Part shown: one piece after another, positions 2,322 to 12,154 of the stretch
Layout: the number at the start of each line of letters is the position of its first letter
Position numbering within the stretch: the stretch's first letter is position 1
From: Herpetosiphon giganteus
GTDB lineage: Bacteria > Chloroflexota > Chloroflexia > Chloroflexales > Herpetosiphonaceae
NCBI RefSeq assembly: GCF_016907925.1
Contig: NZ_JAFBCZ010000015.1
Coordinates: 62,001-126,000, forward strand
Direction: 5' to 3'
DNA length: 64,000 nucleotides
Notes under the pieces: generated by a model
Databases searched by the model: none
What the model was told of the DNA's origin: nothing
What the model saw: the letters and a program-made list of their open reading frames with translations, nothing else
Program-made: the position numbers and the translations under genes

Positions 2322-3188
2322 TTAGCCCAAGGTTTCAAGCGGAATTTGCGGAATGCGTTCGAGCATGCCTTGACCAAAGACCTGTTGCAAACCCAAATGC
2401 GGCATATGGATGTAGCCAATATGGCAGCCACAGGTGGCATTGGCACAAACTCGTGGTTGCAACGCAGCCTGCCAATCGGGATTGTAAATATTGCCAATTG
2501 GCTCGCGCACAAAATGACAACGCCGGATCGTGCCATCGCCATCGACCGAAATCACGCTCTCGCCCGTGGCACAAGCCCGCCCCGCCGAAGGATGGCGGGT
2601 ATTGTTGATCGGAAAGAGCGGATCAATCGCTGTCAGTTGGGCAATTTCCTCAGGACTGTAATAGCCAACTTCGCGTTTATAGGCATTGACCCAAAGGTAA
2701 ATTTGCTCGGGCAGCAATTCACGCAAGGCCGCAATTTCGGCCTGATGTTCATGCATGCCGACCACACCAACGCTAATTGGAATGCCGCGCTCAATTGCTT
2801 CGTGGCAACGGGCCAAAAAGCGCTCGCGCGGCGTTTGGGTTGGATGATAGGTTGCCCACAAACCAAGCCGCTCTTTCGGGCAATCCTCGGCCCAATCGAG
2901 CCGCGCCGAAAGATTGGTCTGAATCGCGACTTTTTGCACATGGGGCATGGTGGCCAGCGCCACGATTGCCCGTTGATAGCGCCGCCGAATCAGGGCCTCG
3001 CCCCAAGGTGTAAAGAAAATGCTTAGTTGAAGCTGAGTTTGTTGAGCAGACCATTCTACAAAGCGTTGTAGTGCAGCTTCATCGTGGGCATGCTCGGCGG
3101 CAGTTTCTTGGTGCTTAGCAAACGGGCAATAGCTACAGCCATAATTACAGCTTGATAAGGGGCCACGATACAGAATTGCTAAATTCAT
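2322..3188 (-). CDS. STM4011-like radical SAM protein
   Basis: 288-residue radical SAM enzyme. Residues C14, C18 and C21 form the CX3CX2C motif (CNYGCSYC) that binds the 4Fe-4S cluster and S-adenosylmethionine. A second cysteine group near the C-terminus (C206, C224, C248, C253, C255) resembles the SPASM/twitch-type auxiliary clusters of peptide-modifying radical SAM enzymes. It is last in the operon, and its ATG overlaps the stop of the STM4012-like gene by four bases (ATGA), so the two are probably made together. Size, order and neighbours match the family NCBI names after Salmonella STM4011. The reaction is not known to me; protein or peptide modification is inference from the auxiliary cysteines. 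Confidence 0.85.
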   Translation of the reverse strand: MNLAILYRGPLSSCNYGCSYCPFAKHQETAAEHAHDEAALQRFVEWSAQQTQLQLSIFFTPWGEALIRRRYQRAIVALATMPHVQKVAIQTNLSARLDWAEDCPKERLGLWATYHPTQTPRERFLARCHEAIERGIPISVGVVGMHEHQAEIAALRELLPEQIYLWVNAYKREVGYYSPEEIAQLTAIDPLFPINNTRHPSAGRACATGESVISVDGDGTIRRCHFVREPIGNIYNPDWQAALQPRVCANATCGCHIGYIHMPHLGLQQVFGQGMLERIPQIPLETLG

Positions 3189-4504
3189 CGCAGAATAAAC
3201 TCCTCGCTAAGCTGACGAATCTGGGGCGAGTAAAGCCACGGCCCAATCAGATCCGAGCGTTCTAGGCCTGCGGCGGTTAGTTGATAGCTGCCATTATGAT
3301 ATTCAGCCCAGCCACATTCCAATAATTCGTTGATTTGGCCTAAATCGTCTAAAAGCTCACTGCCGAATTGCGTTCGATAAGCCTGCGCATCCAGCCCGCT
3401 GACCTGCAACAGCGATTGAATCACAAAGCGGCGGCGTTGCTCAGCGCTCGACACCTCACAGCCATAATCAACCTGGCTTAAATCAAACAGGCTGCGTTGG
3501 TTGTAGCTCTGAATAATTTGGCGTACCGAGCTGGCTCCGACCGCATAATCGCTGGAGTAGTGCAAAGCGCGGGTGTACGAACGAGCGCCAGCGCCCAAGC
3601 CCAGCATGCCATCGGTTTGGCAACAATAGCTTGGCCCTTGGCTATCGTCGGGGGCGTGAGCGGCGCGAAACATACGCATTGAAATTTGTTGGTAGCCTGC
3701 CGCCAACAAGCGTTCGCGGCCAACTCGATAGCATTCCAAGCGCACATCCTGTTCCCAGCCCGTGCCACGCCGATCCAAGCCAGTCAACGGTCGCACATAC
3801 AACGGATACAAATACAGTTCTTCTGGCTGCCATTGCAAGGCAATTTCCAACGATTCGAGCCAGGTTGCCACGCTTTGGTTGGGCAAGCCATAGATCAAAT
3901 CAATATTCAACGTGGGAATTTGGGCAGCGCGAATTGTATTTAATGCCTGCTCAACCTCAGGGCGGCGTTGGGCACGGCCAGCTCCATTCGCTTCATGATC
4001 AAGGAAACTTTGCACCCCAATGCTCACCCGATCAACCCCTGCTTGGCGCAAAATTGCCATGCGATCGGCGGTTGCGGTATGCGGCGAGGTTTCAACCGAA
4101 AGCGGAATCGCGCGCGAATTCACTCCTAGCCAGCGTTGGCTCATGCTAAATAGTTGCTCTAACTCGGCTGCATCAAGGTAGGTTGGCGTGCCGCCGCCAA
4201 TCGCCATGCGGCTAAACTGCAATGGGCCAAGCTCATTATGCACTGCCTGCATCTGAGTTTCTAAAGTTGCCAAATAGCGTTGCACCACTACTTCTTGTGG
4301 GTTAGTGGTGGTGAACAAATTGCAAAAACCACAGCGCATTTCACAAAACGGAATGTGCAAATATAAAAATAATTGCGCGTGCGACTCGCTGGCCCAAACT
4401 TCGCGCAATGAACGTGGCGCGAGCTGGCGATAGGCCGATTTGTGCGGGTAACTATAGCTATAGCCCATATAGGGCGTAGCATTGGCATATTCACGCAGAT
4501 GCAT
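3185..4504 (-). CDS. STM4012-like radical SAM protein (HemN/HemW-related)
   Basis: 439 residues from the chosen start. C54, C58 and C61 (FCEMRCGFC) form the radical SAM motif, and GGGTPTYL follows as in coproporphyrinogen oxidase-like (HemN/HemW) enzymes. The N-terminal YSYPHKSAYR stretch is what I recall as typical of STM4012 proteins. The longest frame begins at 4603, but that adds 33 residues inside the upstream hydrolase gene; ATG at 4504 gives a normal N-terminus and a 14-base overlap. Despite the HemN resemblance, the context argues against heme synthesis: partners are a second radical SAM protein, an ATP-grasp protein and LRR proteins. Substrate unknown. Confidence 0.85.
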   Translation of the reverse strand: MHLREYANATPYMGYSYSYPHKSAYRQLAPRSLREVWASESHAQLFLYLHIPFCEMRCGFCNLFTTTNPQEVVVQRYLATLETQMQAVHNELGPLQFSRMAIGGGTPTYLDAAELEQLFSMSQRWLGVNSRAIPLSVETSPHTATADRMAILRQAGVDRVSIGVQSFLDHEANGAGRAQRRPEVEQALNTIRAAQIPTLNIDLIYGLPNQSVATWLESLEIALQWQPEELYLYPLYVRPLTGLDRRGTGWEQDVRLECYRVGRERLLAAGYQQISMRMFRAAHAPDDSQGPSYCCQTDGMLGLGAGARSYTRALHYSSDYAVGASSVRQIIQSYNQRSLFDLSQVDYGCEVSSAEQRRRFVIQSLLQVSGLDAQAYRTQFGSELLDDLGQINELLECGWAEYHNGSYQLTAAGLERSDLIGPWLYSPQIRQLSEEFILR

Positions 4505-5294
4505 CGGCTTCCTCCAAGCAGCAATCAGCATAGGGCACAGTCCAAACACTGGGATGCGCCAAGCGATGGCCGTAAAAACCATCGTCGCCATAGGCCGTGC
4601 CATGATCCGAACAGAGCATCATAAAGGTTGGGTTGCGTTGGCGTAACGCAGCAAATAACGCAGGCAATTGGCTATCAACATAGCGCAACGCAGCAGCATG
4701 GCTCGCCAGCGTATCGCCCGTAGCGCCAGCCAAATAATGGGCATTTGGTTGATGCAACGCTGAAATATTGATAAACAAAAAGATCCGTTGCTCAGCAGGA
4801 ATCGCCTGCAAGCGCTCAACTGCCAAGGCCACCTGAAACTCGGTCGAACGTGGCTCGGTTACGCCCAAGCGCGGCTCCCAATACGCTTCGTGAAATAAAT
4901 CGGGCAGTACGCAACTCAAGGCGGTTTGGCGATTAAAAAAGCCCACGCCGCCAATGCAAATTGTGCGATAGCCAACCTGCGCCAAGCCAGTTACCACCTC
5001 GGGAGCATCAAACACAAAGGTTTGGTCAACCGTGGTTTCGCTGCCAGCAAAGCGCGCTGCAAACAAGCGTGGATGCGGGCCGGGCGTGGCTGGGGTTGGC
5101 ATAAAGCCAGCAAACATTGCTTGATGGGATGCATAGGTAAACGAGCCTGGGCTATGCCGTTCCTGCCAACCATGCGGCAAAAGTGCGCGTAAATTGGGCG
5201 TGCCGCCATTGGCCCACTCAGCACACGCCACGTCGTAGCGCAAGGTATCAAAGGTCACGAGCACAATATCGTGCGTTGGAATGTATTGTTTCAT
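4491..5294 (-). CDS. STM4013-like hydrolase of the alkaline phosphatase/sulfatase superfamily
   Basis: 267 residues. VTFDTLRYD near residues 14-21 carries the first metal-binding Asp (D16). The segment SFTYASHQAMFAGF is where the nucleophile Ser/Thr of this superfamily sits. SDHG at about 229-232 and H243 complete the metal site. The protein is about half the length of true sulfatases, matching the compact STM4013/SEN3800 family. It probably hydrolyses a phosphate or sulfate ester, but the substrate is unknown. It overlaps the next gene downstream by 14 bases, and a 95-base repeat-bearing gap separates it from the upstream ATP-grasp gene. Confidence 0.82.
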   Translation of the reverse strand: MKQYIPTHDIVLVTFDTLRYDVACAEWANGGTPNLRALLPHGWQERHSPGSFTYASHQAMFAGFMPTPATPGPHPRLFAARFAGSETTVDQTFVFDAPEVVTGLAQVGYRTICIGGVGFFNRQTALSCVLPDLFHEAYWEPRLGVTEPRSTEFQVALAVERLQAIPAEQRIFLFINISALHQPNAHYLAGATGDTLASHAAALRYVDSQLPALFAALRQRNPTFMMLCSDHGTAYGDDGFYGHRLAHPSVWTVPYADCCLEEADASA

Positions 5295-5304
5295 TGTATC
5301 TTTC

Positions 5305-5430
5305 GAGGGTTTAGGATTCAGGGGTCAGGGGTCAGCATAGTTGAATTCTAGGAAAGACAAAGAATCTGTTTTCAGTACAGATCGTATCCCTAAACCCTGA
5401 CCACTAGCCCCTGATCCCTAGCCCCTACTA
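5305..5430. repeat. Degenerate GGGGTCAG/CCCTGA repeat pair around an operon gap
   Basis: Two blocks of near-tandem 7-8-base units lie in opposite orientation: GGGTTTAGG then TCAGGGGTCAGGGGTCAG from 5307, and CCTAAACCC then CTGACCACTAGCCCCTGATC from 5389. The 9-base arms 5307-5315 and 5389-5397 are perfect inverted repeats and could pair in the mRNA between the ATP-grasp and hydrolase genes. The same sequence family recurs at 20370 and 42005-42265. The right block runs into the 3' end of the ATP-grasp gene. Confidence 0.65.
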
Positions 5431-6526
5431 TTTCTGCTTCATAACTATCAAGCCCATCAACCAAAACATTAGGTAGCAAATCACCAAAGGCATTGACTTC
5501 GCCAACCAAGCAATGCTTGAGGCTGTTGGCAATCAGCAAATCAACCCCAGCATACAGCGAATGATCAAAACATGCTGCCGCCGCTTGAGCTTGCTGCTGC
5601 ACGGTTTGCCAAAACTCAGCACCTAACTGCGCTTGCACCGCTGCCAAATCGCCACGCGGGTTCAACAGGTGCAAGTTGGTAATTGGCGAAGTGCTGGTGC
5701 GCACCACCGTGTGCTGAGCCTTGCCCGCAATCACCAACATGCGCAGATCGTAGACCTTGCCAGCCAGCCGCGCCTTAGGAACCCATTCCTCGACATGGAT
5801 TCGTTGCCGCGCCAAAGCATCGATTAATGGTTGAATCTCATGCAGATGGGTATAAGTACGCAAATTGCGCGAGTTATACAATTGTAAGCCAGCGCTGGTT
5901 TGCACCAACTCAACCGTGGTAATGGCCTGCATCTGACGGCCATTGGTGCGGTAGGCGACCACGCCTGAGGCACTTGAGCCATGGGCTAGTTTGATAAACA
6001 CCCGCTGCCAGCGCTGGGCTTGCATCGCCGTTTGCAATTGCTCAAACGAGCCGACCGCTGGCAACGCTCTTGGAACGATCACATTGGCCGCATCTAAACG
6101 CGCATGGCAAGCTACTTTATCAAACATCACGGCGATGTCTGTGGGGTGTTGCAACAATCGCGCATTCAAGGCAGATAATTGTCGTTCGAGCTGGCCCAAC
6201 AAATGGCGATAACCCCGATACCACTGGCGATTGCCCCACAAACGCCCGCGTTCTTGCGGCAAATCAGCATCGATTGGCCAATGCTCAAAATCCGGCTCAG
6301 GCGCGAGTTCAGCAGCAAAGCACACTAATTCTCGATACAGCTGCTCATCTTTGCCCGGCGATTCGATCCGCACCAACTCGTTGGGCTTGATCAAACTCGC
6401 TAAATCAAGCGTGCCAGCCAGCACATCGTAATAGCTGATGACCCGCGCGGGCGGCTGGCCTTGACGAGCCAATGCCGCCTGCCAAAGCGCCACCCGCCGA
6501 TCACGCGGATTGCCAATAACGATCAT
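5390..6526 (-). CDS. STM4014-like ATP-grasp protein
   Basis: 378 residues with an ATP-grasp fold resembling RimK-type ligases. VFIKLAHGSSASGVV (Lys near residue 178) is the ATP-binding Lys and small-residue loop. VEEWVPKARLAGKVYDLRML follows, then YAGVDLL and, near 342, GEVNAFGDLLP with the metal-binding Glu and Asn. Such enzymes join a carboxylate to an amine or similar nucleophile by acyl phosphate. The start overlaps the upstream STM4015 stop by four bases (ATGA). The last 11 or so codons (GARDQGLVVRV) are encoded by the intergenic repeat at 5390-5430, so the C-terminus may be a repeat-derived extension. Acceptor and donor unknown. Confidence 0.82.
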   Translation of the reverse strand: MIVIGNPRDRRVALWQAALARQGQPPARVISYYDVLAGTLDLASLIKPNELVRIESPGKDEQLYRELVCFAAELAPEPDFEHWPIDADLPQERGRLWGNRQWYRGYRHLLGQLERQLSALNARLLQHPTDIAVMFDKVACHARLDAANVIVPRALPAVGSFEQLQTAMQAQRWQRVFIKLAHGSSASGVVAYRTNGRQMQAITTVELVQTSAGLQLYNSRNLRTYTHLHEIQPLIDALARQRIHVEEWVPKARLAGKVYDLRMLVIAGKAQHTVVRTSTSPITNLHLLNPRGDLAAVQAQLGAEFWQTVQQQAQAAAACFDHSLYAGVDLLIANSLKHCLVGEVNAFGDLLPNVLVDGLDSYEAEIVGARDQGLVVRV

Positions 6527-7455
6527 TCACTCACCGCGATATAGCGGCGATCATGGCGATTAGGGTCTTGCGGCTCGGAAATATCAACCTCAATTCCCAG
6601 TTGTTTAAATTGCTGGGCCAGCTCACTATCGATAAAATGATAGTGCAAATCGAGCAATTTCAGCTGTTTAATCGCAGGGCAGGCCAACAAGGCCTTTGCA
6701 CCTTCATCGCCAAGGTTGCCAAGCGAAAGATCAAGGATCTCAATGCGGTTAATAATCGGCGCTTGGCTCAGAGCAATCGCTAAATCATCAGCAAATGAGC
6801 AATCGCGCAACGCCAACACCTTGAGTTGCGGGAACAATTCGCCGTTGAGCAATGGTTCAAGATCAGTCAAGGTCACATCGCCGCCATACCAATCGGAGCC
6901 GAGCCACAATTCCAAATGCTCCAGCGCTGGCAATTTGCCTTGAAAAATCTCTTGCACAACCCGATTGGCCAAGCCGCCGCTTTGAATAACCAAGGTTTTG
7001 AGCTGAGCATGCTGGCACGAACCAAGGCTTAAGCCGTTGGCTCCGCGAATGGCAAAATGCTGCAAGTTGGGAAACGCCGAAAGCAATGGCGAAAGATCAT
7101 CCTGCTCGATCCACGAGATTTCCGATTCTTCGCTCATAATATCGCCAACGAATAAGGCGCGTAAATTGGGCAATTGCGGGGCAGCGCTGACTAAACTTTC
7201 AACGACTTCATCAACTGGGCCGTTGCCATCATCAAGCTCCCACCAAGTTCCAATCACCAAACCAGTGGTTTTTTCAACACCTGGCAAAGCCAAAAAATCA
7301 GCAAAGCGATCGCTCCACACTACCTTGCTATCGTAATCATCTTCGTAGCTCAGCCCAACCCGATGCACCACGCCGCTTGGTTGCAAAATACCAGGGTGAT
7401 CCCAATCGGCAATGTTCGATGGCAAAAGCTCCGCCATCCATGGCAATTGAGCCAT
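6523..7455 (-). CDS. STM4015-like LRR protein, copy 4 of 4
   Basis: 310 residues. It contains leucine-rich-repeat-like segments such as LPALEHLELWLG, FPQLKVLALRDC and RIEILDLSLGNLGDEGAKAL, with the short ribonuclease-inhibitor-like spacing seen in the STM4015 family. It ends in a charged linker and the tail RRYIAVSE. This is the most divergent copy in sequence and lies directly before the ATP-grasp gene, sharing ATGA with it. GGAG precedes the ATG. No enzyme motif is visible; LRR proteins generally bind other proteins. It could be a scaffold, recognition subunit or substrate of the modifying enzymes encoded downstream. Confidence 0.8.
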   Translation of the reverse strand: MAQLPWMAELLPSNIADWDHPGILQPSGVVHRVGLSYEDDYDSKVVWSDRFADFLALPGVEKTTGLVIGTWWELDDGNGPVDEVVESLVSAAPQLPNLRALFVGDIMSEESEISWIEQDDLSPLLSAFPNLQHFAIRGANGLSLGSCQHAQLKTLVIQSGGLANRVVQEIFQGKLPALEHLELWLGSDWYGGDVTLTDLEPLLNGELFPQLKVLALRDCSFADDLAIALSQAPIINRIEILDLSLGNLGDEGAKALLACPAIKQLKLLDLHYHFIDSELAQQFKQLGIEVDISEPQDPNRHDRRYIAVSE

Positions 7456-7466
7456 TCTTGTGCTCC

Positions 7467-8408
7467 TTACTCGCTAACGGCGATATAGCGATATTCTTCG
7501 TCACCATCTTCATCGGCGGTTTCTTGGCCGCTCACATCGCTTTTAAGTTCAATCGTGGCCCAGCAATCGCGCATACCATCGCTCATATAGTGGTGGTGCA
7601 AATCGAGAAATTCGAGTTTGCGAATGGCTTCGCTGGTAAACAGCACTTCAGCACCAGCATCGCTCAGATTGCCCAGCGAAAGATCGAGCACTTTGATTCG
7701 TTCAAGAATTGGGGCTTTGGCCACTGCTTGGGCCAGCGCATCGGCATATTCACAATCGCGCAAACCCAAATTGATTAAGCTTGGAAAACGCTCACCGCTT
7801 AAAATCGGTTGCAGATCATCGACGGTCGAATTGCCACCATATTCATCATTACCCAGCCAGAGTTCCAAATGCTCAAGCGCTGGCAAATTGGCAGCAGCCA
7901 CGTCGCGCACCACGTGCACCGGCAAACCACCAGTCTGAATCACCAAGCCTTTGAGCTGTTGATGTTGAATCGCGCCAAAGCTCAAGTTCGAGCCACCGCG
8001 AATTGCCAAATACTCAAGCTGTGGGTAAGCTGCCAAAATCGCAGCATAATCGCCTTGGATAATCCACGAAATTTCCCATTCTTCATAGGTAAAATCGCCG
8101 ACGAACAAGGCTTTGAGCAAGGGCAAGCGTTCGCGAGCATTCACGATGCCTTCTAAAACAAGCTCAATATCATTATCTTCTGGCGAGTCGTGCCACCAAC
8201 GCCCAATCACCAAGCCCGTGGTTTGGGCAGGCTCATCGGTCGCCAACCACGCATTAAAATAATCTTGCCAAGTTGGGGCTGGCGCTTTCGAGCTATAGTC
8301 GTATTCCAAATGCAGGCGCACAGGGTGACCAAGCGGCGCAAGGTTTTTTCGTCCGTCCCAATTAGCGATCGTCGAATCGCCAAAATAGCCCATCCATTCA
8401 ACAATCAT
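7467..8408 (-). CDS. STM4015-like LRR protein, copy 3 of 4
   Basis: 313 residues starting MIVEWMGYFGDST. GAGG lies eight bases before this ATG, which is the homologous start of the neighbouring copies; the frame stays open to 8486 but that upstream part looks like leader. Marker segments are GLVIGRWWHD, LFVGDFTYEEWEISWI, LPALEHLELWLG and LDLSLGNLSDAGAEVLF. The C-terminus is an acidic linker followed by YRYIAVSE. It is very similar to copy 2, pointing to recent tandem duplication. An 11-base gap separates it from copy 4. Its leader carries a hairpin at 8430-8451. Confidence 0.82.
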   Translation of the reverse strand: MIVEWMGYFGDSTIANWDGRKNLAPLGHPVRLHLEYDYSSKAPAPTWQDYFNAWLATDEPAQTTGLVIGRWWHDSPEDNDIELVLEGIVNARERLPLLKALFVGDFTYEEWEISWIIQGDYAAILAAYPQLEYLAIRGGSNLSFGAIQHQQLKGLVIQTGGLPVHVVRDVAAANLPALEHLELWLGNDEYGGNSTVDDLQPILSGERFPSLINLGLRDCEYADALAQAVAKAPILERIKVLDLSLGNLSDAGAEVLFTSEAIRKLEFLDLHHHYMSDGMRDCWATIELKSDVSGQETADEDGDEEYRYIAVSE

Positions 8409-8429
8409 GCAAACCTCACAAACAACCAG

Positions 8430-8451
8430 CGTAGGCCGATTGAAGCCTACG
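8430..8451 (-). promoter_or_regulatory. Leader hairpin of STM4015 copy 3
   Basis: In mRNA sense the stem CGTAGGC/GCCTACG has an 8-base loop and ends 21 bases before the ATG. A matching hairpin stands at the same distance before copy 1 (10461-10488), with a T:A pair changed to C:G. It has no U-tract, so a terminator is unlikely; a translation-control or mRNA-stability element fits better. Confidence 0.45.
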
Positions 8452-8501
8452 AGTAGGATACCTGACGATGCGACAAAGACTGTCACAAGCCATGCAAGCG
8501 C

Positions 8502-9443
8502 TTATTCAGTAACCGCCGCATAGCGATGTTCTTCGCCCGCGTGTTCTTCGGCAATTTGTTGCTCGCTCACATCGCACCATAACCCAATTGTATCCCAGCA
8601 TTCAAGCATGTCGTTGCTCATATAGTGATGATGCAAATCGAGAAAGTTGAGGCTGCGAATTGCCTCGCTGGCAAATAACACTTCGGCTCCAACATCGCTC
8701 AAATTGCCCAACGAAAGATCGAGCATGCTAATTTGCTCAAGAATCGGCGCATTCACCAGCGCTTGGGCCAGTTCATCGGCATATTCACAATCGCGCAAGC
8801 TCAAAATTTCTAAATTTGGAAAGTTTTTGCAATCTAAAATTGGTTGCAAATCAGCAACCGTCGAATCGCCACCATAATAATCACAGCCGAGCCAGAGTTC
8901 CAAATGCTCAAGCGCTGGCAAATCGGCAGCAGCAATCTCACGCACAATTTGGGCCGCCAAACCGCCAGTCTGAATCACCAAGCCTTTGAGCTGTTGATGT
9001 CGCAGCGTGCCAAAACTCAGCCCATTGCCACCACGAATGACTAAATATTCAAGTTGCGGAAACGCAGCCAACACAGGCGCATAATCACCTTGGTTGATCC
9101 ACGAAATTTCCCATTCTTCGTAGGTAAAATCGCCAACAAACAAGGCTTTGAGCAAGGGCAACTGCTCACGAGCATTGATGATGCTAGCTAAAACGCGGTC
9201 AATATCGCCAGGATCAACCGTATCGTGCCACCAGCGCCCAAGCACCAAGCCTGTGGTTTGGGCTGGTTCGGCGGTTGCCAGCCACGCATTGAAATACTCG
9301 TCCCACGTTTTGGTCGTGGCTTTGGCCGTATAATCGTATTCCAAATGCAGGCGCACAGGCTGGCCAATTGGCGCAAATTGCTCTTTAGCATCCCAATTGG
9401 CCAGCGTTGAGTCACCAAAGTAGCCGATCCATTCAAAAACCAT
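8502..9443 (-). CDS. STM4015-like LRR protein, copy 2 of 4
   Basis: 313 residues starting MVFEWIGYFGDSTLANWD. The repeats and spacing match copy 3 almost segment by segment (GLVLGRWWHD, LFVGDFTYEEWEISWI, LPALEHLELWLG, LDLSLGNLSDVGAEVLF). The tail is an acidic linker then HRYAAVTE. GGGAG precedes the ATG. The gap to copy 3 is 93 bases and contains that copy's leader hairpin. No catalytic motif is visible. Confidence 0.82.
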   Translation of the reverse strand: MVFEWIGYFGDSTLANWDAKEQFAPIGQPVRLHLEYDYTAKATTKTWDEYFNAWLATAEPAQTTGLVLGRWWHDTVDPGDIDRVLASIINAREQLPLLKALFVGDFTYEEWEISWINQGDYAPVLAAFPQLEYLVIRGGNGLSFGTLRHQQLKGLVIQTGGLAAQIVREIAAADLPALEHLELWLGCDYYGGDSTVADLQPILDCKNFPNLEILSLRDCEYADELAQALVNAPILEQISMLDLSLGNLSDVGAEVLFASEAIRSLNFLDLHHHYMSNDMLECWDTIGLWCDVSEQQIAEEHAGEEHRYAAVTE

Positions 9444-9491
9444 AGCCTAGCTCCCAAATAGCAATAAAAGCCAGCGAAGCCCGCAATAAGT

Positions 9492-10442
9492 CTAGGCAAG
9501 ATAGCCGCTGATGGCGATTGGGTAGGCTTCTTCTTCGTCGTCGTCTGGCACAAATTGTTGATAACTTACTTCGACCGCAAGCTCAATCGATGCCCAACAA
9601 TCAAGCATTGCATCGCTCAGATAGTGGTGGTGCAGCACAAGCATATCGAGTTTGCGAATCGCTGGGCTAGCGAATAATGCTTCGGCTCCAACATCGCTCA
9701 AATTGCCCAGCGCAAGATCAAGCACCTTAATCCGCTCAAGAATGGGGGCATTGGCAAGGGCTTGGGCCAGTAGATCAGCATAATCACAATTGCGCAAGGC
9801 CAAGGTTTTTAACTGTGGCAAGCCTACGCCATTCAACATTGGCTGCAAATCGGCAATTGTCGAATCGCCACCATGCTCAGCGCAGCCCAGCCACAGCTCC
9901 AAATGCTCAAGCGCTGGCAAATCGGCAGCAGCAAGCTCGCGCACCACTTGGGCTGATAAACCATTGGCTTGAATCACCAAAGTTTTGAGCTGATGATGCT
10001 GAAGCGAACCAAAACTCAAACCAGGGCCACCGCGAATAACCAACGATTCAAGTTGCGGGTAGGCTGCTAAAAATGGCCCATAATTGCCTTGCCTAATCCA
10101 CGAAAGGTCGAATTTCTTATCAGTAACTTCGCCAATAAACAGCGCTCTAAGCAATGGCATCCGTTCGCGGGCAGCAGCAAGTTGAGCTAAAACATAATCA
10201 GCACTCATGCGCTCAACGGGATCATCCCAATGCCACCAGCGATCAAGCAAGATGCCATTGATCCGTTCTGGATCATCGCTCAACAGCCAATCATTAAAGA
10301 AAATCTCCCATGGCTCTGGCTCGTAATTGTGGTCATCTTCGACATAAAAACGCATCAGATCATCATTGGGCTTAAAGTGCTCCCATCCAGTTGAATTGTG
10401 GACGGCCAATTCACCATAGTGGTTTTTCCATTCAAAGATCAT
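9492..10442 (-). CDS. STM4015-like LRR protein, copy 1 of 4 (first gene of cluster)
   Basis: 316 residues from the ATG at 10442, which has GAGG seven bases upstream and gives MIFEWKNHYGE, homologous to the other copies. The open frame reaches 10520, but that region also holds the leader hairpin and the end of the transporter gene. LRR segments match the other copies (LPALEHLELWLG, LDLALGNLSDVGAEALF). The tail departs from the others: after DDDEEEAY it reads PIAISGYLA, losing the final VSE/VTE. It is the promoter-proximal member, so the operon probably starts in the 74-base gap behind the transporter gene. Confidence 0.8.
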   Translation of the reverse strand: MIFEWKNHYGELAVHNSTGWEHFKPNDDLMRFYVEDDHNYEPEPWEIFFNDWLLSDDPERINGILLDRWWHWDDPVERMSADYVLAQLAAARERMPLLRALFIGEVTDKKFDLSWIRQGNYGPFLAAYPQLESLVIRGGPGLSFGSLQHHQLKTLVIQANGLSAQVVRELAAADLPALEHLELWLGCAEHGGDSTIADLQPMLNGVGLPQLKTLALRNCDYADLLAQALANAPILERIKVLDLALGNLSDVGAEALFASPAIRKLDMLVLHHHYLSDAMLDCWASIELAVEVSYQQFVPDDDEEEAYPIAISGYLA

Positions 10443-10516: not shown

Positions 10517-12154
10517 TCATAGCAGTTGAATGAGCATCAGCTGGGCAAGAATAATTTTGATGATTAATGCTAGTGGATAGACCGCTGCATAGCCTTGATT
10601 TGGCAGTTCGTTATTGCTTTGTTGCACGGCAAAACTGAGCAAGGCGGGCTGGGTCTGAAAACCAGCCAACATCCCCGTGAGAATGCCCATTGGAATTTTC
10701 AACACTTTATAGCCAATTGTCAGAATCAGCATCGCGATTGTAAAGGTGATTGCAGCGCCAACCCCAAATAAGAGCAAGCCATTGCTGCTGAATAAGAATT
10801 TGACGAAATCGTAGCCAGCGCGCGTGCCAACTCCAGCGAGGAACATCACAATCCCGATTTGACGCAAGGTTAGATTGGTGCTATAGGGCATGTTCCAAAC
10901 CAACGGGCCAGTCCGATCAAGCGCCCCCAAAATCAGGGAAACGACCAACGGCCCGCCAGCAAAGCCAAGTTTGATGCTCACGCCGCCAGGTAATGGCAAG
11001 ACCAACGACCCAATCACCAAGCCCATCACCAAGCCCAAGGTGAAGGTCAAAATATCAACTTCACTCAAGGCGCGATACGAATCGCCAAAGAAACGACTCA
11101 CTTGGGGAATATCGGCGCGGCGAGCAATCACCCGCACTCGATCGCCAAGCTCCAAGCGTGTATCTGCGGTTGGCAACATTTCCACGTCGCCACGGCGAAT
11201 GCGGGTAATCGTTGCACCCAGCACTTGCGGCAAATTCAGTTGCTCCAGCCGAATCCCCACAATTTTGGAGTTGGAGACAAACATGCGGCGATAATCAAGC
11301 TCGCGCCGATCGTTGGAAATATCTTCAGTTTCTTGGCCAAGCACCGCAATAACTTGCTCTAGAACCTCGCTTGAGCCAACAATGCTGACGTGATCGCCGA
11401 GCATAAATTGGGTTGCGCCAGTCGTCACTGCCACATGGCCATCACGGCGATAGCGCCCAAACACCATCGACCAATGATACTTGGCAATCAAGGCTTGAAC
11501 TGAAAGCTGGGTTGCTTCAGGATTAGTAATTTCAACCGTGCGGCTGGTAATATCGTGGTGATTGCCTTCTAAATCGTGGCGCGAAACCAATTCTTTGGCA
11601 TAATCGACCCGCCACAGACGTTGCACCAATACAATTGCCAACATCATTGCCACTACGCCCATTGGGTAGGCAATCGAATAGCCAACCACCGGATCATTGA
11701 CCACAGCAGCTAATTGTTGCTCAGGCAAGGCCGATTTCAAATATTCAATGGCTGCTGCTAAGGCTGGCGTATTGGTGATTGTGCCAGTGAACAGGCCGAC
11801 AGTTAACGTTGGTTTAATGCTCAAGAACGAATGGGCTAGAATTGCAAACACATAGGCTATGACGATCATCCCGCCAATAAACAGATTATCGCGTAAGCCT
11901 TTGCTGCGCCACGAGCGAAAAAACTGATGCCCGCTGCTCAACCCGACGGTGTAGACAAACAGCACCAAGCCAAATTGATACAGCACTTCGGGCAGTTTCA
12001 GCCGCTCATCAAGCGAGCCAATTGCCAAGCCCACAAACAAAACGGCGGCAACGCCGAGGCGCACACCGCCGAGATTCAATTGCCCCAAAGGATAGCCGAT
12101 TGCTGCAACCACAAACAGCAGCAATAGAGGATTCGACGCTAGCAAGTCCAACAT
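10517..12154 (-). CDS. AspT/YidE/YbjL-type transporter with two TrkA-C domains
   Basis: 545-residue inner-membrane protein. Residues about 1-170 and 380-545 are two homologous membrane halves (the AspT/YidE/YbjL duplication). Two TrkA-C-like regulatory domains lie between them at about 205-290 and 290-375, recognisable by G-D-VS/IVG and LGDRVRVIAR. Characterised relatives exchange small carboxylates, for example aspartate:alanine antiport; the substrate here is not deducible. AAAGGA precedes the ATG. It is on the same strand as the STM4015 cluster, 74 bases upstream, but a hairpin separates them, so co-transcription is uncertain. Confidence 0.85.
   Translation of the reverse strand: MLDLLASNPLLLLFVVAAIGYPLGQLNLGGVRLGVAAVLFVGLAIGSLDERLKLPEVLYQFGLVLFVYTVGLSSGHQFFRSWRSKGLRDNLFIGGMIVIAYVFAILAHSFLSIKPTLTVGLFTGTITNTPALAAAIEYLKSALPEQQLAAVVNDPVVGYSIAYPMGVVAMMLAIVLVQRLWRVDYAKELVSRHDLEGNHHDITSRTVEITNPEATQLSVQALIAKYHWSMVFGRYRRDGHVAVTTGATQFMLGDHVSIVGSSEVLEQVIAVLGQETEDISNDRRELDYRRMFVSNSKIVGIRLEQLNLPQVLGATITRIRRGDVEMLPTADTRLELGDRVRVIARRADIPQVSRFFGDSYRALSEVDILTFTLGLVMGLVIGSLVLPLPGGVSIKLGFAGGPLVVSLILGALDRTGPLVWNMPYSTNLTLRQIGIVMFLAGVGTRAGYDFVKFLFSSNGLLLFGVGAAITFTIAMLILTIGYKVLKIPMGILTGMLAGFQTQPALLSFAVQQSNNELPNQGYAAVYPLALIIKIILAQLMLIQLL

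Follow-up and report, generated by a model that had tools for sequence, protein, structure and literature searches.

LRR proteins with a near-invariant C-terminal glutamate as candidate carriers in the STM4011-STM4015 gene set

The chemistry and recognition of amino-group carrier proteins (AmCPs) have been described, and in the pearlins (TglA and TmoA, with PEARL) a ribosomal scaffold is built upon at its C-terminus, the tmo cluster including a radical SAM step (PMC9303977). The ATP-grasp ligase RimK acts at the C-terminus of ribosomal protein S6 (RpsF). The gene set described here joins an ATP-grasp protein to LRR proteins that end in Glu, and it comprises five families, STM4011-STM4015, which take their names from Salmonella genes. 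The initial annotation of this DNA took these families to be without established function, and in agreement with this we found no literature on the function of any of the five; the NCBIfam families carry none either.

The cluster and its distribution

The window, that is, the whole stretch of 64,000 nucleotides of Herpetosiphon giganteus DNA that was analysed, holds the cluster at positions 2322-10442, with all eight genes on the minus strand (Table 1). The initial annotation had assigned it to the STM4011-STM4015 families, and an HMM check bore this out, since all five exceeded the NCBIfam curated cut-offs. The four LRR proteins that it listed are four STM4015 copies, all above the cut-off, with copy d barely over it (278.9 against 275). 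Its calls of an alkaline-phosphatase-superfamily hydrolase, an ATP-grasp protein, a radical SAM protein with extra cysteines and a second, HemN-like one also agree with the searches given below. The genes do lie on one strand as it stated, but its wording that they overlap at most junctions was overstated, because overlaps occur at only three of seven (STM4015a/STM4014, 4 nt; STM4013/STM4012, 14 nt; STM4012/STM4011, 4 nt). The remaining junctions are gaps of about 11-95 nt. The 14-nt overlap follows from taking the start of STM4012 at 4504, in an ORF that is open to 4603.

Table 1. Features of the STM4011-STM4015 cluster in the window.
Feature	Positions	Strand	Evidence
STM4011 family radical SAM protein	2322..3188	-	NF038073, 411 bits (cut-off 200)
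STM4012 family HemN-like radical SAM protein	3185..4504	-	NF006067, 599 bits (cut-off 380)
STM4013 hydrolase, alkaline-phosphatase/sulfatase superfamily	4491..5294	-	NF038075, 410 bits (cut-off 250)
STM4014 ATP-grasp ligase, proposed to act on the STM4015 C-terminal Glu	5390..6526	-	NF038074, 412 bits (cut-off 175)
STM4015 copy a, LRR solenoid and flexible tail RYIAVSE	6523..7455	-	NF038076, 334 bits (cut-off 275)
Codons of the copy a heptapeptide RYIAVSE	6526..6546	-	Terminal Glu codon 6526-6528; tail statistics
STM4015 copy b, tail RYIAVSE (heptapeptide codons 7470-7490)	7467..8408	-	NF038076, 353 bits
STM4015 copy c, tail RYAAVTE (heptapeptide codons 8505-8525)	8502..9443	-	NF038076, 340 bits
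STM4015 copy d, most divergent, degenerate tail ..YPIAISGYLA	9492..10442	-	NF038076, 279 bits, match ends at 274/290

Directly upstream of the cluster lies a gene for an AspT/YidE-type transporter (10517-12154). We rejected it as a part of the system: it adjoins the cluster in three other Herpetosiphon genomes (L219, L221 and L222), does not do so in a fourth (L220) and is no recurrent neighbour elsewhere. An anti-phage defence system was also rejected, as the sole hit to the PADLOC models was a partial one of 28 bits, between STM4012 and a radical SAM model.

We scanned GTDB genomes with the STM4011 alignment and obtained at least 572 confirmed relatives. The best 80 of these loci, a sample skewed toward the STM4011 relatives nearest to the query, belong, according to their record titles, to Chloroflexota, Acidobacteriota, Planctomycetota, Myxococcota, Cyanobacteriota, Armatimonadota, Verrucomicrobiota, Actinomycetota, Pseudomonadota and Bacteroidota, and plasmid records add Deinococcota and Bacillota. 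The five-family set is thus common to at least 12 bacterial phyla, with Salmonella and Streptomyces among its holders. Most of about 80 further loci from about 10 phyla have the same genes in the same recurrent order, 4015(n)-4014-4013-4012-4011, and this recurrence of content and order places the cluster far beyond chance. STM4014 is opposite in strand to STM4011 in 17 of the 71 loci that hold both, indicating two modules, 4015-4014 and 4013-4012-4011.

Co-occurrence across genomes, a check that the initial annotation had proposed, also showed the set to recur. Among the 198 genomes of one actinomycete class, the identical 19 hold STM4011, STM4014 and STM4015; in these 19, STM4014 and STM4011 occur once each and STM4015 occurs 39 times in total. 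The enzymes are single-copy, and STM4015 is present in one to five copies, some of them encoded away from the cluster. When we examined 14 genomes without STM4015 near STM4011 (some on truncated contigs), 13 had STM4015 matches elsewhere, six of them above the curated cut-off and usually adjoined by STM4014. STM4014 was present in all 28 further genomes tested. Some STM4015 genes stand alone elsewhere in the genome and retain the tail (L223-L228). Since the number of LRR proteins varies around a fixed set of enzymes and stand-alone copies keep the tail, we suggest that STM4015 behaves like a substrate.

Genomes of the genus Herpetosiphon carry the same locus, and a contig of H. llansteffanensis is 95% identical in STM4011. 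The distribution in Chloroflexota is patchy, because only five of 251 genomes, all of them Herpetosiphon, passed the STM4013 cut-off, yet some Chloroflexota MAGs also contain the set. Weak STM4013 matches throughout Chloroflexota were rejected as ordinary sulfatases. Lone STM4013 relatives were also seen on Streptomyces/Kitasatospora plasmids (L045:6968-7762 and L048:6965-7756) without other STM genes, so that STM4013 alone is a poor marker; the first of them adjoins NUDIX and lasso-peptide B2-like genes. When 5,426 complete E. coli genomes were searched by megablast with the Salmonella cluster (L046:5020-9892), nothing matched.

In about 40 of about 90 loci from several phyla (for example L042:10000-11297 and L084:5219-6555), a two-gene cassette lies no more than 2 kb from the STM set. 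It encodes a DUF6745 protein and a protein of about 98 amino acids with conserved GEVTGHxHR, HEEH and QREYxP, which ends in Asp in nearly all cases. All nine strong DUF6745 matches (>300 bits) in the actinomycete sample were in genomes with the STM set, and the H. giganteus genome has the pair unlinked to the cluster (contig C16 of G000, L230:5043-6465).

The STM4015 tail and the STM4014 ligase

The structural examination of an AlphaFold model of STM4015 copy a revealed a confident solenoid (pLDDT mostly 93-98), whose last ten residues form coil with a mean pLDDT of 61. The solenoid residues are strongly conserved, for example in an EISWIxQxD stretch. Outside the solenoid, an acidic linker is followed by the tail consensus R-(Y/F)-x-A-V-(S/G/A)-E. 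Glu is exactly the last residue in 110 of 115 STM4015 ORFs and in 64 of 66 further distinct ones, compared with 4.6% (33 of 710) for the remaining genes of these loci; these counts are not independent, as many of the sequences are related, though they are spread over many phyla. The four enzyme families of the set show no preference for a C-terminal Glu, and no other protein bearing the STM4015 tail was found in the examined loci. In the tails that end in Glu, position -7 is Arg in 91% and position -6 is Tyr or Phe in 93%, position -4 is mostly Ala, -3 is Val and -2 is Ser, Gly or Ala; positions -9 to -14 are rich in Asp and Glu, within a variable linker. Other variants are MNAMYTE in Salmonella and YYPEVTE in actinomycetes, and divergent LRR proteins encoded beside STM4014 in planctomycetes retain only the terminal Glu (GDYE, GDWE, GDIE and GDME). 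The last residue of STM4015 is therefore under extreme constraint. The conservation of RY-x-AV might also reflect a binding motif.

There are exceptions to this pattern. A Pyxidicoccus copy has Asp as its last residue, and a single Calothrix copy and a fragment from Micromonospora also deviate. Copy d has no terminal Glu in any of the four Herpetosiphon genomes that hold it (the window, L219, L221 and L222), and its ends, ISGYLA, IREYLA and VSEYLQD, indicate that the Glu was lost by replacement or by the addition of a few residues; copies c and d are both absent from L220. Among weak LRR paralogues that are not beside STM4014, some have no terminal Glu (L148 and L145). A solved structure, PDB 2ra8 (Q64V53_BACFR, Bacteroides fragilis), belongs to the STM4015 family (profile match 5.8e-76); its native chain ends in Glu (..YPMITE before the tag), and it contains an additional N-terminal WGR-like region that is absent from the copies in the window.

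An STM4015 gene immediately precedes STM4014 in 70 of 71 cases, with a median gap of 11 nt, and STM4015 is acidic (median pI 4.5 vs 7.8 for STM4014). STM4015 is supported by computation as the partner of STM4014. A LysW/RimK-like ligation was predicted from the STM4015 tail before the structure searches, and the matches to LysX, RimK and ArgX:LysW came after. In a profile search of PDB sequences, LysX ranked first (1.4e-5) and RimK second. With the AlphaFold model of STM4014 (mean pLDDT 94.3, pTM 0.92), the best Foldseek match was ArgX in complex with LysW, and VIA-align also placed ArgX:LysW on top (Z 23.9, 2.7 Å over 269 residues). LysX, RimK (Z 23.2) and LysX/ArgX all lie less than one Z unit below it, and we therefore assign STM4014 to the ArgX/LysX/RimK group and not to a single member; the ATP-grasp fold is widespread, and glutathione synthetase (Z 21.0) and Ddl score only slightly lower. 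STM4014 is a distant relative, with 14-21% identity to LysX/RimK. RimK proper was rejected (TIGR00768, 24.5 bits against a cut-off of 143.4), and the LysX/ArgX family models gave no match in the family HMM search. Residues K137, K179, D329, E343 and N345 are unchanged in all 38 sequences compared, as we would expect of an active ATP-grasp enzyme. These results support the view that STM4014 is kin to ligases whose protein targets have acidic tails ending in Glu and are modified at the C-terminus.

The other enzymes and the proposed mechanism

STM4011 contains the invariant radical SAM motif C14-x3-C18-x2-C21 and five auxiliary cysteines, C206, C224, C248, C253 and C255, that are invariant in 48 sequences; its C-terminal part aligns weakly with the auxiliary-cluster domain of SkfB (E 0.012). 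The relatives of STM4012 include HemN (1olt, 4.9e-59) and the methyltransferase NocN (2.6e-38), and an identity with HemN or HemW proper was rejected by the equivalog cut-offs (HemW 163.4 vs 205.4, HemN 134.1 vs 325). In an alignment of STM4013 with NPP and sulfatases, D16, T53, D230 and H231 are invariant. Thr53 is at the nucleophile position of nucleotide pyrophosphatase/phosphodiesterases, which makes a formylglycine sulfatase less likely and favours phosphoester chemistry. In Salmonella, a gene for a Cof-type HAD phosphatase follows STM4011, and STM4011 of Bacteroides finegoldii has a C-terminal extension that looks HAD-like by eye from the sequence; these two arrangements hint at phosphate. 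The B. finegoldii set is on a plasmid (L231:5873-9890) and consists of 4015-4014-4011 with only a remnant of 4013.

The initial annotation proposed a protein- or peptide-modification system with the LRR proteins as substrate or recognition factor. A modification system is supported by the invariant Glu, by what STM4014 is related to, by the co-occurrence and by the single-copy enzymes beside multi-copy LRR proteins, and this evidence favours substrate over recognition factor. It did not include the STM4015 tail or the kinship of STM4014, both of which point to one site and a carrier-like logic. Based on these observations, we suggest, with a moderate degree of confidence, that STM4015 is an LRR-scaffolded substrate or carrier that is charged by STM4014 and processed by STM4011, STM4012 and STM4013. 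STM4014 would use ATP to activate a carboxylate of the invariant C-terminal Glu and would couple it to the amine of a building block, much as LysW is charged by ArgX/LysX. STM4011 and STM4012 would then process the tethered group, as would STM4013, whose substrate, given the Thr at its nucleophile position, is probably a phosphate ester or diester. The product might be released, or retained as a modification of STM4015; the cluster contains no peptidase-like release enzyme. Judged from the tail and the ligase, ligation at the terminal Glu is quite likely, and for carrier-type processing of a tethered group we regard the case as evenly balanced.

The same ligation could instead serve a plain C-terminal modification, in which STM4014 adds Glu or another amino acid, the radical SAM enzymes complete a permanent tag, and the LRR protein that bears it acts as an effector. 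RimK ties structurally with ArgX/LysX and shares the (S/T)NLH motif region with STM4014, LRR proteins usually act by binding, and no release enzyme is evident. We nevertheless consider such a tag rather unlikely, as polyglutamylation would hardly call for so much machinery as a phosphoesterase-like hydrolase and a pair of radical SAM enzymes, and several nearly redundant substrates per genome suit a carrier equally well. It is improbable that the tail serves only for docking or recognition, or as a degron, with STM4015 acting as a scaffold that binds the enzymes non-covalently and brings them to another substrate. LRR folds do bind partners, and the conserved solenoid stretch as well as the residues at -7 and -6 would suit binding, but this would leave unexplained why the partner ligase belongs to a group that acts on a C-terminal Glu, and why the Glu is exactly terminal while the flanking motif varies.

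PQQ and mycofactocin derive from Tyr/Glu residues that are C-terminal or internal. By analogy, the radical SAM enzymes could crosslink the heptapeptide RYxAVxE, which might then be excised as a RiPP-like product; the SkfB-like auxiliary cysteines of STM4011 and the frequent Tyr/Phe at -6 would speak for this. We hold this to be very improbable, because the Glu alone is invariant across the Salmonella, planctomycete and actinomycete tails, and searches of the cluster gave no match to a protease, to an exporter or of the RRE type; nor did a protease, an exporter or a short precursor recur with the set in the neighbourhoods of the loci compared.

Returning to STM4015 as a carrier charged by STM4014, the new elements are the C-terminal Glu tail and the kinship of the ligase, and they would provide, if true, the first concrete, testable mechanism for an unstudied operon. 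An exact candidate site, the last residue, and a specific ligase make the question directly testable. LRR proteins would then join acyl, peptidyl and amino-group carriers as scaffolds of biosynthesis, and the orphan structure 2ra8 would gain a context. We put forward more tentatively, as a rather doubtful extension, that LRR proteins holding a small molecule on the C-terminal Glu form a new ribosomally made carrier class, on which the phosphoesterase-like hydrolase and the two radical SAM enzymes would make a cofactor or signal in at least 12 phyla, with the DUF6745 and GHxHR/HEEH pair as a frequent partner.

Comparison with known systems

The pearlins would resemble the STM set in C-terminal building on a ribosomal scaffold combined with a radical SAM step; they differ in that loading is done by an aminoacyl-tRNA-dependent PEARL, whereas the STM set would use an ATP-grasp ligase and an LRR scaffold of about 310 amino acids. 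RimK with S6 would be similar in having an ATP-grasp ligase that acts at a protein C-terminus, with a structural score close to that of the best match of STM4014. In contrast, the proposed target of STM4014 is a dedicated LRR partner, radical SAM enzymes are present, and STM4014 falls below the RimK family cut-off.

The AmCP systems (LysW with LysX/ArgX, and Vzb22) share with the STM set an acidic protein whose flexible extension ends in Glu and a dedicated ATP-grasp ligase, and the closest PDB structure to STM4014 is ArgX:LysW. A further trait of LysW-type carriers is an isopeptide bond at the gamma-carboxylate of the Glu. Their carrier is a small LysW domain, whereas STM4015 is an LRR solenoid of unrelated fold without that domain. 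The downstream enzymes of the STM set, radical SAM and alkaline-phosphatase-superfamily proteins, are also different, and several putative carriers occur per genome. Given these other downstream enzymes and the lack of a LysW domain, we suggest that the STM set is not a member of the AmCP systems and would only work in a similar way.
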